Positions 28,089-34,192 of a DNA stretch of 64,000 bases are shown here, one piece after another (within the stretch, counting starts at the first letter, position 1; every line of letters starts with the position of its first letter). Source of the stretch: an uncultured Bacteroidales bacterium. Its GTDB lineage: Bacteria > Bacteroidota > Bacteroidia > Bacteroidales > P3. Both the position numbers and the translations under genes were made by a program. The stretch spans positions 1 through 64,000 of the forward strand of contig CAMWNM010000006.1 in NCBI GenBank assembly GCA_947175635.1, read 5' to 3'. Under the pieces are notes generated by a model. It saw only the letters and a list, made by a program, of their open reading frames with translations. It had not been told where the DNA came from and ran no database searches.

Positions 28089-30296
28089 CTATTCGATAAT
28101 ATCCATCTCTTCGACCAAGCGCGTGGCACCGGCAAATTTGTCGATGATAAACAAACAATAGCGGATGTCGAGCATGATATTGCGGCACATTTCGGAGTCG
28201 TAACGGATATCGCTCATGGTACCTTCCCAGCAACGGTCAAAATTGATGCCGATCAGATTGCCTTCCCCATTGAGCACCGGACTTCCCGAATTGCCGCCCG
28301 TGGTGTGGTTGGTACCCACAAAAGCCACCGGCATCTCGCCCAACGCATTGGCATACCGGCCGTAATCCTTGTTGGCATAAAGTTCCTTCAGCCTGTCTTC
28401 CACCACATAATCGTAGATACCGGGGTCTTCTTTTTCCATAATCCCCTCGATGGTGGTGTAGGGACGGTAATATACCGCATCGGCCGGCGAAAATCCCGCC
28501 ACCTTTCCGTAAGCCACCCGTAAAGTGAAGTTGGCATCGGGATAAAGCTGTTCGCTGCCTACGTTGCGCAACGGACCAACCGGTTTGAGGCCCACCCGCA
28601 TCACGGTAGCGAAATCCCCGCTTTCGGTCAGTGCCATCTGCCCTTTCATGTAAAGACGTTGCAGGCTGTCTATCTGTTTTTGGCATTGCAAGACAAGCGG
28701 CCGCACCGCATGGAGATAACGGCCGTAAACCTCATCGGCATATTTGAAAAGCGGATCTTTTTCTATTTCCTTATATGATGCGGCATTGTAGCGGTTCAAA
28801 AAAGACCGGAGCCGATCAGGATCGGTAAAAAGCGACTTGCCGTAAAAGGTTTCCATCGCTTTCCCAACGTTCTTGTCGGGAAAGTCGATTACCTGCGTGA
28901 AGCTTCCATCGGCATGTGTCTGGAAAATCATCCTTTCAAAAATAGCCCGATCCACCTCCGCATTGTAGTCCTTAAAGAATTTTTCCGCCTTTCGTTCACA
29001 CTCGGCAAGCGCTTCCTCAAGCTTCATTCCGGTTTCCTCACCCTTCGAGACACGGCAGAGTTTCTTGAAAGAATAGGCGAACCCCACCGCTTCGGGTGCA
29101 AGGATATGTTCCTGAAAAACGATGGCCTCCGTCTGGCAGACCGCCATTTCCTCATAAGCCTTTTTCAATGCCGGAAGCACGCCTGCGTAAGGTTCTCCGT
29201 TCAAGGATTGTGTCCAGTCTTCGAAGATCTTTTCATAATCCTGTTTACTGCCGATAACGTTGAGTCTTTGGATGCCTTTGACTTCACCTATCCATTTTTT
29301 CCAACCGTTGGCGATACCGGCCGCCTTGGCCGCGTATTGAATCCTCACCGCCGGATCTTTTTCCATGGCGGCCTTGATTACTTCCAGACGGGCGGTGCGG
29401 GCAGCGATCCGCATCGGGTCTTCCTGTTCCAGAATCTGTCTGACCCCGAACGAACTGAGGTACTCCTGCGTACGGCCGGGATAGCCGAAAACGAAAGTGA
29501 AGTCCCCCTCTTCATAACCGCGCAGATCTATCTTCAGATACCTGAGGGGTTTGTATGGTTTGTTATCCGGACTATACGGAGCGGGGGTATTGTCCTTTCC
29601 GGCATAGATGCGGAACACCGAGAAATCTCCCGTATGCCGCGGCCACATCCAATTGTCGGTGTCTCCGCCGAATTTGCCGATATTGGAGGGAGGCGCACCC
29701 ACCAGACGCACATCGGTAAACACTTCGTAAATGAACATATAATACTGGTTGCCGTAATAAAACGGCACCACCTTCACTTCCGTTTTCCCTTCCTGGGAAA
29801 AGGCCTCCGACAAACGTTTGCCGCGGGCCTGAATACTGTCGCGGCGCTGGTTTTCGGTATAGCGCGCATCGATACCGTCCAACATGCTGTGGGTTACATC
29901 CCGCATTTCTTTCAGAAAACGCACCGCCAAACCGGGGCAAGGCAGTTCTTCATCCATCGTGGCCGCCCAAAATCCGTTGGTCAGATAATCATGTTCTACC
30001 GAAGAATGGTATTGGATATAACTGAACCCACAGTGATGGTTGGTAAGCACCAACCCTTGATCGGAAACCACCTCACCCGTACACCCGCCGCCGAATATCA
30101 CAACGGCGTCCTTGAGCGAGGAATGGTTGATACTGTAGATGTCGTCGGCCGTAAGTTGCAACCCCAGACGTTGCATCTGCGCCTGATTCCGCTGCAAAAG
30201 AAGCGGAACCCACATACCTTCATCGGCCCTGACCGTTCCCCCCATCGCAATGAGGGCACAGGAAAAAAGAATCGTTTTCTGTAAAAAAATTTTCAT
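28089..30296 (-). CDS. dpp11: S46 family dipeptidyl-peptidase 11 (Asp/Glu-specific)
   Basis: 735 residues from the ATG at 30296 (another ATG at 30302), starting with a signal peptide (FSCALIAMGGTVRA). Chymotrypsin-like triad: His in TNHHCG, Asp in GGDTDNWMWPRH and Ser670 in GNSGSPV. The residue 18 positions after the catalytic serine is Arg (INFDRCWEG, Arg688), which in Porphyromonas DPP11 sets preference for acidic P1 residues; DPP7 has Gly there. It is a periplasmic enzyme that releases Xaa-Asp and Xaa-Glu dipeptides for import, fitting an amino-acid-fermenting cell. It lies between porQ and the glycosyltransferase. Confidence 0.93.
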   Translation of the reverse strand: MKIFLQKTILFSCALIAMGGTVRADEGMWVPLLLQRNQAQMQRLGLQLTADDIYSINHSSLKDAVVIFGGGCTGEVVSDQGLVLTNHHCGFSYIQYHSSVEHDYLTNGFWAATMDEELPCPGLAVRFLKEMRDVTHSMLDGIDARYTENQRRDSIQARGKRLSEAFSQEGKTEVKVVPFYYGNQYYMFIYEVFTDVRLVGAPPSNIGKFGGDTDNWMWPRHTGDFSVFRIYAGKDNTPAPYSPDNKPYKPLRYLKIDLRGYEEGDFTFVFGYPGRTQEYLSSFGVRQILEQEDPMRIAARTARLEVIKAAMEKDPAVRIQYAAKAAGIANGWKKWIGEVKGIQRLNVIGSKQDYEKIFEDWTQSLNGEPYAGVLPALKKAYEEMAVCQTEAIVFQEHILAPEAVGFAYSFKKLCRVSKGEETGMKLEEALAECERKAEKFFKDYNAEVDRAIFERMIFQTHADGSFTQVIDFPDKNVGKAMETFYGKSLFTDPDRLRSFLNRYNAASYKEIEKDPLFKYADEVYGRYLHAVRPLVLQCQKQIDSLQRLYMKGQMALTESGDFATVMRVGLKPVGPLRNVGSEQLYPDANFTLRVAYGKVAGFSPADAVYYRPYTTIEGIMEKEDPGIYDYVVEDRLKELYANKDYGRYANALGEMPVAFVGTNHTTGGNSGSPVLNGEGNLIGINFDRCWEGTMSDIRYDSEMCRNIMLDIRYCLFIIDKFAGATRLVEEMDIIE

Positions 30297-30344
30297 GAAC
30301 ATCGCTCAGAAAGTGATTTTATCTTGTTTTGGAGATTCAAACGC

Positions 30345-31451
30345 TCAAAGGGCGTCAGCCTTTTCAAAAGCCCGTGTGGCCTTGGTGGTTCTGCGTTTGT
30401 TGAACGCATCCAGATCAAGGGTGAGGCTGATGTAATTGGGCGACCCCAGTTTATGGAATTTGGAACGGGAATAGCTGAAATTAAACTTGGAGATACGGAA
30501 TCCCACACCCCACGAGAAGCCTACCATCCCGGGCTTGGAGGGAAGCATCATATCGCGGGAACGCATGTAGTTGTAGGATGCCCTGATATAGAAACCACGG
30601 TAGGGAATCAATTCCAGCCCCACCACGATATGCCGCGCCAGATTATCGAAAAAATCGGCCGCCCCGCCCCGTGTCTTTGCCTGACCCGTTATCAAATCCT
30701 GCTCGGCATAAGGATCTTCGTAGTTCAGTTTCCATTTCTGGAGGTTGGGAAATTCAAAAAAGACCCGCAAGGGCGTGTGGGGAATACGTTGGGAGAGAGC
30801 CACGGCCACTTCAAAAGGCATCAGCGTGCTTCCTTCCGCCGAATAGGACTTGAGGGCACCGCCCATATTGCGCAACAACAGCGAAACGGCAAACAGCCGG
30901 GAAGTATTGGCGTAGGTGGCCGAAACATCCACCCCCATACCGAAAGCATGGTAGGATTCGATTTGGGAGTAAATCATCTTGAAATTGGCCCCGATGGTGA
31001 AATGGCTGTCGAGTTCCCGGCCCCAACCCACAATCAAGGCCGCGTCGTTGGCCGAAGCCGTGCCGTATTCGTTGCCGGCGGCATCGGTTACATAAATCTT
31101 ACCGTAGTTGCCGAACTGGGCGTGAACGGCAAAACTGCCCACCTTCTCAAAGGTGCGGCTATAGGAAGCAAAACCGTAATTAGTTCCGTTGAAATAATTA
31201 ACGTAATTAAATGCCAGATGATTGTGAATTTCACTGGTAATCAAGGAAGGATTGGCGAGAGAGAGGGTGATGTCGGCATCCCGGACCGACAGGAATTCAG
31301 CCCCCATGGCACCGATACGTGCCGAATTGGCCATATCCAAAAAGGTAAAGGAAGAACGACCGAACTGCGCCCGCAAACCGGAACCGCAACCCAAAAGTGC
31401 GGCCATAAACAAAAACAACGCCCGTCTGGTATTTCCTCTCATCCTTTTCAT
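30345..31451 (-). CDS. porQ: type IX secretion system protein PorQ
   Basis: 368 residues with a signal peptide (LFLFMAALLGCGSGLRAQ), then an outer-membrane beta-barrel-like sequence of the PorQ/PorV relatives (FTFLDMANSARIGAMGAEF, SLANPSLI). PorQ belongs to the T9SS attachment machinery, with PorU, PorV and PorZ. This agrees with the five T9SS cargo proteins in the window; no other secretion component is encoded here. A TTG codon just upstream is not preferred over the ATG at 31451. A -7 box ends 7 bases before the ATG. Confidence 0.92.
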   Translation of the reverse strand: MKRMRGNTRRALFLFMAALLGCGSGLRAQFGRSSFTFLDMANSARIGAMGAEFLSVRDADITLSLANPSLITSEIHNHLAFNYVNYFNGTNYGFASYSRTFEKVGSFAVHAQFGNYGKIYVTDAAGNEYGTASANDAALIVGWGRELDSHFTIGANFKMIYSQIESYHAFGMGVDVSATYANTSRLFAVSLLLRNMGGALKSYSAEGSTLMPFEVAVALSQRIPHTPLRVFFEFPNLQKWKLNYEDPYAEQDLITGQAKTRGGAADFFDNLARHIVVGLELIPYRGFYIRASYNYMRSRDMMLPSKPGMVGFSWGVGFRISKFNFSYSRSKFHKLGSPNYISLTLDLDAFNKRRTTKATRAFEKADAL

Positions 31452-31458
31452 CAAAGGT

Positions 31459-31480: not shown

Positions 31481-34192
31481 TCATCGCTCCTCCTGTCCGG
31501 GCAACGGAAAACCGCTTTCTTCACAGATTTTCTGCAAACGGGCCAAACGCCACGGTTTACCATAATCGAACAATTCTCCATACGTCCGGGTCAACATATC
31601 GGCCAACAAAAGGGTTTCGCGCTGGCTATTGAACATTCCCGAACATATCTCCCGGATCTTTTTCCAATCCGGACGCGTCAGTTTAAGCGATATGAAAGTG
31701 TCTGCCTCATGTATCGCCGTCTCGATGGCGGCGATTTCGTCCGAAAGAATCCGCGCCTTGGCCTTGGCGATCTGCTGTTCGCCCACCTCGCGCAACACGT
31801 TGAGGTATTTTTCGTAAAGCACGTATTCGTTGAGCATGAAGGCTATTTCCTCTTCCTGAAACGATTGCCAAAACGAGTGCGGGAGCGGCATGGCCAAAAA
31901 ACGGCCCAACATGAAGGAACCCGCATCGAGACCGGAACGGCGGTTTTGACGACAATAGGCGCATGCCTTTCCGAAAAACGCCGTTTTGGCCGGAAGAGAA
32001 AGCAGCTCATAAACCCGGTACTGGTCTTGGTGAGAGCCCATATTGCTTTCCATCAGCTGCGATACATATTCCGACATATTGGCCGCAAACCATTTGTTCA
32101 CGATATCGCGCCCCACATCGGGACGGTCGGTCAAATCGTTGCGGATAAGACGAGTCAGGGTGTTGAGATCCACTATGTCGGGCACTTTTATCGAATCGAT
32201 GATGGCTGTATATTTTTCGTAGGCATTTTTCATGTTGACAAAAACCCGCTCCTCTTTGGCATTCATCTCCAGTTTCGCCCCATGCAGGTAATCGTAAAAA
32301 CGCGAAGGTTTGTATCGGGCGTCCCCCTTATAGACGGACGCCGTTTTGCTGGAAAGCGTGATCCATTCGAATTCACCGATACGCATGCCGTCCGCGTTCA
32401 CCAATGAATTTCCTTCCATACGGATACCGTTTTTCTCCAGATTCAGGAAAGCCGGAATCCCGTAACCGCGACAAGCGGTAACCACGTGTATCGCCGCCGG
32501 GGTCATGCTTAGAATGGCATCCATCTCATTGAGCACAATGGTGTCTTCGGGCAGGAACTTTTCTTTGCAAAGACAAACTTTCTCGTTGCCTTTCTGCTTG
32601 AGATCAAGCGCGGCCGCCGTACTGAAACAAATCTTGGCCGAAACAGCCGAACGGGGCAAGACGTTGACGCCCTTTCCAAAAAAGCGGAGGGTATTGAAAG
32701 AAGCATCGTCTATGCTTTCCGAAAAAATCTGCCGGCGGTGGTAAGGCCGCACCAATTCGCTCACCCTTTCTTTCGTGATAAGCCCCTGTTCATAAAGATG
32801 GATCGAGGAAAGCAACGCCGCCCGGCCGGTAAGTTCGGATTCGTTGATTTGCAGAACGGCAAACAAATCGGCCTTACCCGGTATGTTTTCCGCACCGAAC
32901 TCCACCGTTACGGGCGAAGCCAGACGCTTTTCGAGCTTGGGCAAGAGCGGATCGAAGTGGTAAATGGCCGGAAAACTTTCCTTGATCTGGGCGCGGTCGA
33001 AATATTCATAGTCTTTGGAGGAAAGATTGCCTGTCATGATTTCCTCCCCGAATATATCGGGATAGCTTTCTATCTGCACGCCCAGACCGGTGCGCGAATG
33101 GCGGCTGTACAACACACCCGGATAAGCGAAGTCGTTGCCGATGGTCCATACCATTTTCTGCAACAACAAAGACGGGTAGGCAATCCGGCCCTGCATGAAA
33201 GTAGCCAGCAAAGAACGGTTGTTGCCGTAAAAACGGCGGATATGGAGAAAATAAAAAAATATCTGCTCGAAAGCATCCTCAAGAATGACCTTGCCTTGCG
33301 GACAAGCCTCTATGCGGCGCTCCACCTCAACAATCAAATCTTTGCGGGCCGCAATGTTTCTTTCTTCAATGCCGGTTTCATACTCGCAGGCCTCCCCGTA
33401 AAGCATCTTGTAAAGGTTCATCAGATTGTTCCAGTAGATGCGGGTGGCCATCTTTTCGGGAAAACGCCGCAAGAGACAGGCATATACCTCTTTGGTTACG
33501 CCGGCGTTGAGGATGGTGGGCATCAGGCCCGGAATATACTGGGGCATGGTGCTGCGCAAGGCGAGTATGAGGGGTGAGGCACCTCCGCCCAAGGTACTCT
33601 CGGTCATGATTTCAAGATTGCGCAAAGCTTGGCGGAGATGCCGTCTTTCCCTTTCCTCGGTCAGGGAACTTTCCGGATCATGAAACGAAGCCTCGAAAAA
33701 GCGGGCGGTGAGGATGCTGAAATCGGGAACGGCATAACCGGCGCGCATCAGGTCCACCAGCATCACACCCTTGTGGCTTATCTCGTTCACGGTGTATGTA
33801 TGCGGGGAAAGCGCGGACGTAACGTATTCGTTTTCGGTAAGCGGATTTTCCTTCACGTACCGCCTGCAGCTTTCATAAAAATCCTTGCGTATCTTCTCCA
33901 GTTTTTCCACCGAATCCGCACGGCCATCCCGTTCCTCAATCAACAGCCGGAGAAAATCTCCCGCCCGGGCATGATCGGCGCGCAACATAAAATACAGGTC
34001 GTACCAACGCGGCGCTATCTCCCATTTTTGCGCGTGGCCGGAAAAGGAATAAATCACCGTGCCCGGCTTGTTGCCTTCCGGTTCACGGTCTTTTTCGAAT
34101 TCCCGCCAACCTTTCTCCACAAAAAGATTCAGGATATGGTAATTGGGATAACTTCCCCGAATCTTGAACTCGATATCCGGATGCGCCTCCAT
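31481..34192 (-). CDS. divergent pyruvate phosphate dikinase-like protein lacking a recognisable PEP/pyruvate barrel
   Basis: 903 residues; function unknown. An N-terminal extension of about 120 residues precedes a region that follows the PPDK ATP-grasp domain: HKGVMLVDLMRAGYAVPDF (Lys141) matches GGKGANLAEM, and LALRSTMPQYIPGLMPTIL (Arg213) matches the VRSG...MPGMMDT motif. Then come PGVLYSRHSRTG, VTVEFGAEN (Glu431 kept; the neighbouring Asp seems replaced by Thr) and YEQGLITKERV. A phosphohistidine-like domain follows with IHVVTACRGYGIP, His569 in the place of the catalytic His. Spacing Lys-Arg-His resembles PPDK. Residues about 640-903 lack PPDK barrel motifs and look helical. It may transfer phosphate to an unknown acceptor or be a pseudo-enzyme. 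Confidence 0.7.
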   Translation of the reverse strand: MEAHPDIEFKIRGSYPNYHILNLFVEKGWREFEKDREPEGNKPGTVIYSFSGHAQKWEIAPRWYDLYFMLRADHARAGDFLRLLIEERDGRADSVEKLEKIRKDFYESCRRYVKENPLTENEYVTSALSPHTYTVNEISHKGVMLVDLMRAGYAVPDFSILTARFFEASFHDPESSLTEERERRHLRQALRNLEIMTESTLGGGASPLILALRSTMPQYIPGLMPTILNAGVTKEVYACLLRRFPEKMATRIYWNNLMNLYKMLYGEACEYETGIEERNIAARKDLIVEVERRIEACPQGKVILEDAFEQIFFYFLHIRRFYGNNRSLLATFMQGRIAYPSLLLQKMVWTIGNDFAYPGVLYSRHSRTGLGVQIESYPDIFGEEIMTGNLSSKDYEYFDRAQIKESFPAIYHFDPLLPKLEKRLASPVTVEFGAENIPGKADLFAVLQINESELTGRAALLSSIHLYEQGLITKERVSELVRPYHRRQIFSESIDDASFNTLRFFGKGVNVLPRSAVSAKICFSTAAALDLKQKGNEKVCLCKEKFLPEDTIVLNEMDAILSMTPAAIHVVTACRGYGIPAFLNLEKNGIRMEGNSLVNADGMRIGEFEWITLSSKTASVYKGDARYKPSRFYDYLHGAKLEMNAKEERVFVNMKNAYEKYTAIIDSIKVPDIVDLNTLTRLIRNDLTDRPDVGRDIVNKWFAANMSEYVSQLMESNMGSHQDQYRVYELLSLPAKTAFFGKACAYCRQNRRSGLDAGSFMLGRFLAMPLPHSFWQSFQEEEIAFMLNEYVLYEKYLNVLREVGEQQIAKAKARILSDEIAAIETAIHEADTFISLKLTRPDWKKIREICSGMFNSQRETLLLADMLTRTYGELFDYGKPWRLARLQKICEESGFPLPGQEER

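Follow-up and report, generated by a model that had tools for sequence, protein, structure and literature searches.

The present study analyzes a gene in a 64,000-nucleotide stretch of DNA from an uncultured Bacteroidales bacterium (the window), the product of which resembles pyruvate phosphate dikinase (PPDK, EC 2.7.9.1) in its ATP-grasp and phosphohistidine regions and lacks the PEP/pyruvate barrel. The question raised by this locus is what such a protein would do with a phosphoryl group. It could be passed to a different acceptor, to a barrel encoded elsewhere, or to a partner protein under regulation, or the gene could be a PPDK that has decayed or become a sensor. An earlier note on the same DNA had proposed that the phosphate would go to a different acceptor, on the helical C-terminus or on a partner, or that the protein is regulatory.

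A PPDK-type core without the barrel

The gene is complete, its ATG lying 14 nt past the trmH stop, and the lpxK-pnp-trmH run that precedes it is as the earlier note described (Table 1). No PPDK domain was recognized by Pfam in the 903-aa protein, and PPDK_N was recognized in only 9 of 25 family members, so the family is largely invisible to Pfam and easily overlooked; weak Pfam matches to UPF0175, RFX_DNA_binding, and DUF1376 differed from member to member and were discarded. The NCBIfam PPDK model TIGR01828 did match residues 136–647 (4.1e-27), far under its 843-bit cut-off. A search of PDB sequences aligned PPDKs with residues 136–627 (the single sequence gave 1.6e-16, the family profile 1.9e-32), and in both searches PPDKs were the only solved chains significant by sequence. 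The AlphaFold2 (AF2) model of the whole protein (mean pLDDT 83) agrees, superposing on PPDK 1dik with a VIA-align Z of 29.6 and rmsd of 4.5 over 501 residues (model range 121–668, covering both core domains), with the swivel domain matching the PPDK phosphoryl carrier domain 2fm4 at Z 15.5 (rmsd 2.2, 125 residues). Because the model fits 1dik much better than the alternative PPDK conformer 2r82 (rmsd 4.5 vs. 12.1), the His domain would be swung away from ATP, as though facing the C-terminal domain.

Table 1. Positions in the window of the barrel-less gene, its domains, and the two genes downstream
Feature	Residues	Coordinates	Strand	Description or basis
Whole gene		31481..34192	(-)	Encodes 903 aa; phosphotransferase-like protein derived from PPDK, lacking the PEP/pyruvate barrel
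N-terminal extension (~125 aa)	1-127	33812..34192	(-)	AF2 model, own profile
ATP-grasp (PPDK_N-like) domain	128-496	32705..33811	(-)	Profile, PDB and fold matches, alignment
Phosphohistidine (swivel) domain	497-627	32312..32704	(-)	PPDK carrier-domain match 2fm4, alignment
C-terminal all-helical domain (~275 aa), in the barrel's place	628-903	31484..32311	(-)	AF2
PorV/PorQ-like outer-membrane protein gene		30345..31454	(-)	Directly downstream of the 903-aa gene
S46-type peptidase gene		28089..30302	(-)	Downstream of the PorV/PorQ-like gene

The absence of a barrel, also claimed in the earlier note, is borne out by Pfam, which found no match to PF02896 in the C-terminus of the 903-aa protein or of its 24 homologues, and by the AF2 model, in which residues 631–893 form helices only and no PEP-binding TIM barrel is seen. 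The PPDK-type core and the missing barrel are real, far beyond chance. Modelled alone, the C-terminal domain reached a pLDDT of 84.6 and is predicted to be all-helical, with no convincing match to a known family or solved fold: Foldseek returned nothing below an E of 0.08 in the PDB and at best 0.17 in viral models, and the best VIA match (Z 7.2, rmsd 4.1, 150 residues) is of the size commonly seen as background with helical models. The N-terminal extension, which had likewise been noticed earlier, is modelled as two to three strands followed by three helices (63–115); it has no convincing PDB match, and its only invariant residues are Tyr15 and Asn17.

Distribution, selection, and genomic context

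The protein belongs to an apparently undescribed family, so far known only from Bacteroidales; no description was found in open-access literature searches, which are weak evidence of absence. Full-length homologues, with 43–78% identity across the full length, occur in eight of the 13 genomes of the window's genus (its own genome counted) and in other genera of its taxonomic family, and the 25 aligned members span about a dozen taxonomic families. With the family profile at E<=1e-60, 16 of 295 sampled Bacteroidales genomes were positive. A profile of the C-terminal domain found 18 of 393, always fused to the core, and the N-terminal profile (A5) found the fused gene only, again in 18 of 393 Bacteroidales genomes, apart from one weak match in G157 to a TPR-like lipoprotein that was dismissed as chance. 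A phylum-wide sample of 395 genomes yielded no homologue outside Bacteroidales, the only match being the window's own genome, and a single global scan returned near relatives only. In the gene tree members cluster by genus and mostly by family, a pattern consistent with an old gene inherited vertically and lost many times. A protein with 78% identity and the same lpxK-pnp neighbors is found on a contig titled Ruminococcus flavefaciens (L003, JAMPAI010000016.1), a metagenome-assembled genome that is probably mislabelled.

The gene is under strong purifying selection, dN/dS being 0.04–0.11 for the whole gene and low in every domain across five homologue pairs, and the additional N- and C-terminal domains are present in 25 of 25 members. 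Given this selection, and since neither domain was met apart from the core, the protein represents one stable architecture rather than a damaged PPDK; simple decay of a PPDK is ruled out by the conservation and by selection on all domains. An apparent natural fission of the gene in one genome (G234) was also rejected, as its two fragments both lie at contig ends. Within the genus the gene looks dispensable, because it is missing from five of the 13 genomes (G003, G004, G006, G008, and G012), all of them small assemblies of 1.2–2.0 Mb.

Of 31 positive genomes, 30 have a PF02896 match, which nearly always falls at another locus, in a frame as long as a complete PPDK; the host thus retains a normal PPDK separate from the barrel-less gene, with no separate barrel partner apparent. 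In three genomes (G025, G175, and G130) the frame with PF02896 is short, perhaps because a contig or the reading frame is interrupted there, and no stand-alone barrel family was seen among the 31. A phosphohistidine domain would require an acceptor domain, and for this reason a split PPDK or PEP synthase paired with a separate barrel protein had to be weighed, but the presence of the barrel almost always within PPDK-sized frames, and the fact that the C-terminal place is already taken by a conserved domain, make it highly improbable.

No neighbor gene is common to family members beyond the genus, and PADLOC and plasmid searches returned nothing. Within the genus the surroundings are partly kept, with lpxK, pnp, and trmH before the gene and the PorV/PorQ-like gene and S46-type peptidase after it. 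The order of putative kinase gene, PorV/PorQ-like gene, and S46-type peptidase recurs in another contig of the genus (L075), and because this order is kept the gene may be co-transcribed with the envelope genes there.

Catalytic residues and the phosphoryl acceptor

Residues were compared in an alignment of the 25 family members with 12 PPDK-type sequences. Six counterparts of PPDK catalytic residues never vary among the 25 members, despite identity down to 43%: Lys141, Arg213, Glu375, Glu431, Gln448, and His569, equivalent to PPDK Lys22, Arg92, Glu271, Glu323, Gln335, and His455. The earlier note had named Lys141, Arg213, Glu431, and His569, and both these assignments and the spacings it gave (72 and 356 residues, vs. 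70 and 363 in PPDK) proved correct. What it overlooked, besides the family-specific nature of the N- and C-terminal domains and the complete PPDK elsewhere in the host, is that other catalytic residues have been replaced. PPDK Asp321 is Thr in every member (Thr429 in the 903-aa protein), Arg337 is Asn in 24 and Asp in one (here Asn450), and the Pi-side Arg135 is Arg in none of the 25, while all three are kept in 12 of 12 of the PPDK set. The GGMTSH loop before the catalytic His is one residue shorter in the family and reads TPAAIH or similar (TPAAIHV vs. GGMTSHA), and Arg367 and Pro358 are newly invariant.

In PPDK, mutants of Asp321 are reportedly inactive and those of Arg337 and Arg135 impaired, and PPDK truncated before the barrel is said still to catalyze the first two partial reactions. 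The position of Asn450 is that of the metal-binding Asn in other ATP-grasp enzymes. Judged from the alignment, the residues suggest an ATP site that is active but altered. Because Asp321, Arg337, Arg135, and the GGMTSH loop have been replaced, the phosphotransfer chemistry may differ from that of PPDK, and loss of the three residues in particular suggests an ATP-site step that departs from the PPDK scheme, where Pi serves as second acceptor. The same replacements and the lost loop could also mean that the protein is a PPDK derivative with little or no catalytic activity left, kept as a nucleotide sensor or scaffold. We consider this unlikely, as invariance of His569 and five ATP-site residues in all 25 members is hard to explain without phosphotransfer, and with Asn450 at a metal-binding position the change from Arg337 to Asn need not inactivate the enzyme.

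The best reading, and one that we believe about as readily as we doubt, is that the protein would be a stand-alone PPDK-derived ATP-dependent phosphotransferase. We infer its catalytic activity as follows: ATP would be bound by the ATP-grasp domain (Lys141, Arg213, Glu431, and Gln448), this domain would phosphorylate His569 on the swivel domain, and the swivel would deliver the phosphate to an acceptor on the helical C-terminal domain, which occupies the place of the PEP/pyruvate barrel. Alongside the six invariant residues, the low dN/dS, the fold match to both PPDK core domains, and the better superposition on 1dik than on 2r82, this is favored by conservation of the C-terminal domain, which is never found without the core, has a mean column identity of 0.57 (vs. 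0.62 in the ATP-grasp domain), and contains five invariant charged residues, Glu647, His721, Arg764, Glu789, and Lys795. These five are what a candidate binding or reaction site would resemble and are no proof of one. Precedents are two proteins described below, VadK, which autophosphorylates on its His although it has no barrel, and rifampin phosphotransferase, which pairs the two core domains with another acceptor domain. Against it stand the replaced Asp321, Arg337, and Arg135, the changed loop, and a neighborhood that is not conserved. The acceptor at the helical C-terminus that the earlier note proposed is retained as the best reading, and a separate barrel protein as partner is disfavored. 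Neither finding that the note named as refuting it was obtained, as the model shows no barrel and Lys141 and His569 vary in none of the 25 members. More tentatively, the family may be a Bacteroidales-specific phosphotransferase class with a remodelled acceptor domain and remodelled ATP-site chemistry: it lacks Asp321, Arg337, and Arg135, has the new conserved Arg367 and Asn450, and may transfer a single phosphoryl group from ATP by way of His569 to some new metabolite or protein on the helical domain.

Relation to known PPDK derivatives

PPDK itself (TIGR01828; C. symbiosum 1DIK) has the same order of ATP-grasp and then phosphohistidine domain and shares the six catalytic residues, but it has the barrel, Asp321, Arg337, Arg135, and Thr453-Ser454. 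In the family these residues are replaced, the barrel is absent, and an N-terminal extension and a helical C-terminal domain are present. Barrel-less relatives of PPDK are already known, and the family is a further variant of them. VadK (Rv1127c) of M. tuberculosis, which derives from PPDK and lacks the barrel, phosphorylates itself on its His in an ATP/Mg-dependent manner, contacts methylcitrate-cycle enzymes, and regulates that cycle (PMC13400623). The family resembles it in being PPDK-derived and barrel-less with ATP-binding and His domains, but VadK is actinobacterial and stops after the His domain, while the family adds the N-terminal ~125 aa and the helical C-terminus. By analogy, the protein could be a regulatory histidine kinase that autophosphorylates on His569 and uses the helical C-terminus and N-terminal extension to dock a partner protein that it controls or phosphorylates. 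The likenesses of the C-terminal model, mostly to helical-repeat binding folds (TOG, PUF, MIF4G, and TPR), would suit docking, but all lie within noise, no better than the helical background, and VadK has no such additional domains. Nor do profiles place the protein among VadK orthologues: NF004531, which to judge by length and name is probably the VadK-type model, gave 73 bits (cut-off 456), less than TIGR01828. A VadK-like regulator is consequently somewhat improbable.

Rifampin phosphotransferase (RPH) has the same two domains with a different acceptor domain (PMC4844700), and in HpeHI, too, an ATP-grasp and a swivelling His domain go together with an acceptor domain other than the barrel (PMC12167813). 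Both match the family ATP-grasp domain in fold (Z 17–18, rmsd 3.2–3.3, about 240 residues), but in sequence the family is nearer to PPDK than to either. In RPH the order is ATP-grasp, acceptor (RIF-binding), and His domain, vs. ATP-grasp, His, and helical domain in the family, and the RIF-binding domain did not appear among the matches listed for the C-terminal model, which leaves room for such a fold.

Phage proteins of phrog_18609, annotated as “PEP-utilizing enzyme” or “pyruvate phosphate dikinase” (647–688 aa), also have a PPDK-like core without a full barrel. Unlike the family, they retain Asp321, Arg337, Arg135, and the GG.TSH loop, have a short C-terminus of another kind, and lack the N-terminal extension. 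In two unrelated phages, Vibrio phage 1.215.A (L084:3874-6960) and Stenotrophomonas phage DLP_3 (L087:2995-6571), a PPDK-like kinase that lacks the barrel but has the complete set of catalytic residues is encoded within ~0.5–1.2 kb of a gene annotated as tyrosine phosphatase-like, possibly as a kinase/phosphatase pair. Two other sequences filed as phage, OR846604.1 (L086, “Enterococcus phage Efs 1-1-1”) and MT839606.1 (L085), encode a canonical PPDK that is full-length or nearly so, the former also an apparent PPDK regulatory protein and chromosomal-type genes, and both contigs are probably bacterial.

From PPDK, VadK, RPH, HpeHI, and the phage proteins alike, the family is set apart by its two additional domains and its changed catalytic signature. 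Barrel-less PPDK derivatives have only now been recognized as regulators and small-molecule kinases (RPH in 2016, HpeHI in 2025, and VadK in 2026), and the family would add to these independently, bringing a new acceptor domain and changes at catalytic positions. The alignment and residue list offer a basis for testing phosphohistidine transfer to a new acceptor, and a PPDK-like annotation need not mean PEP metabolism.
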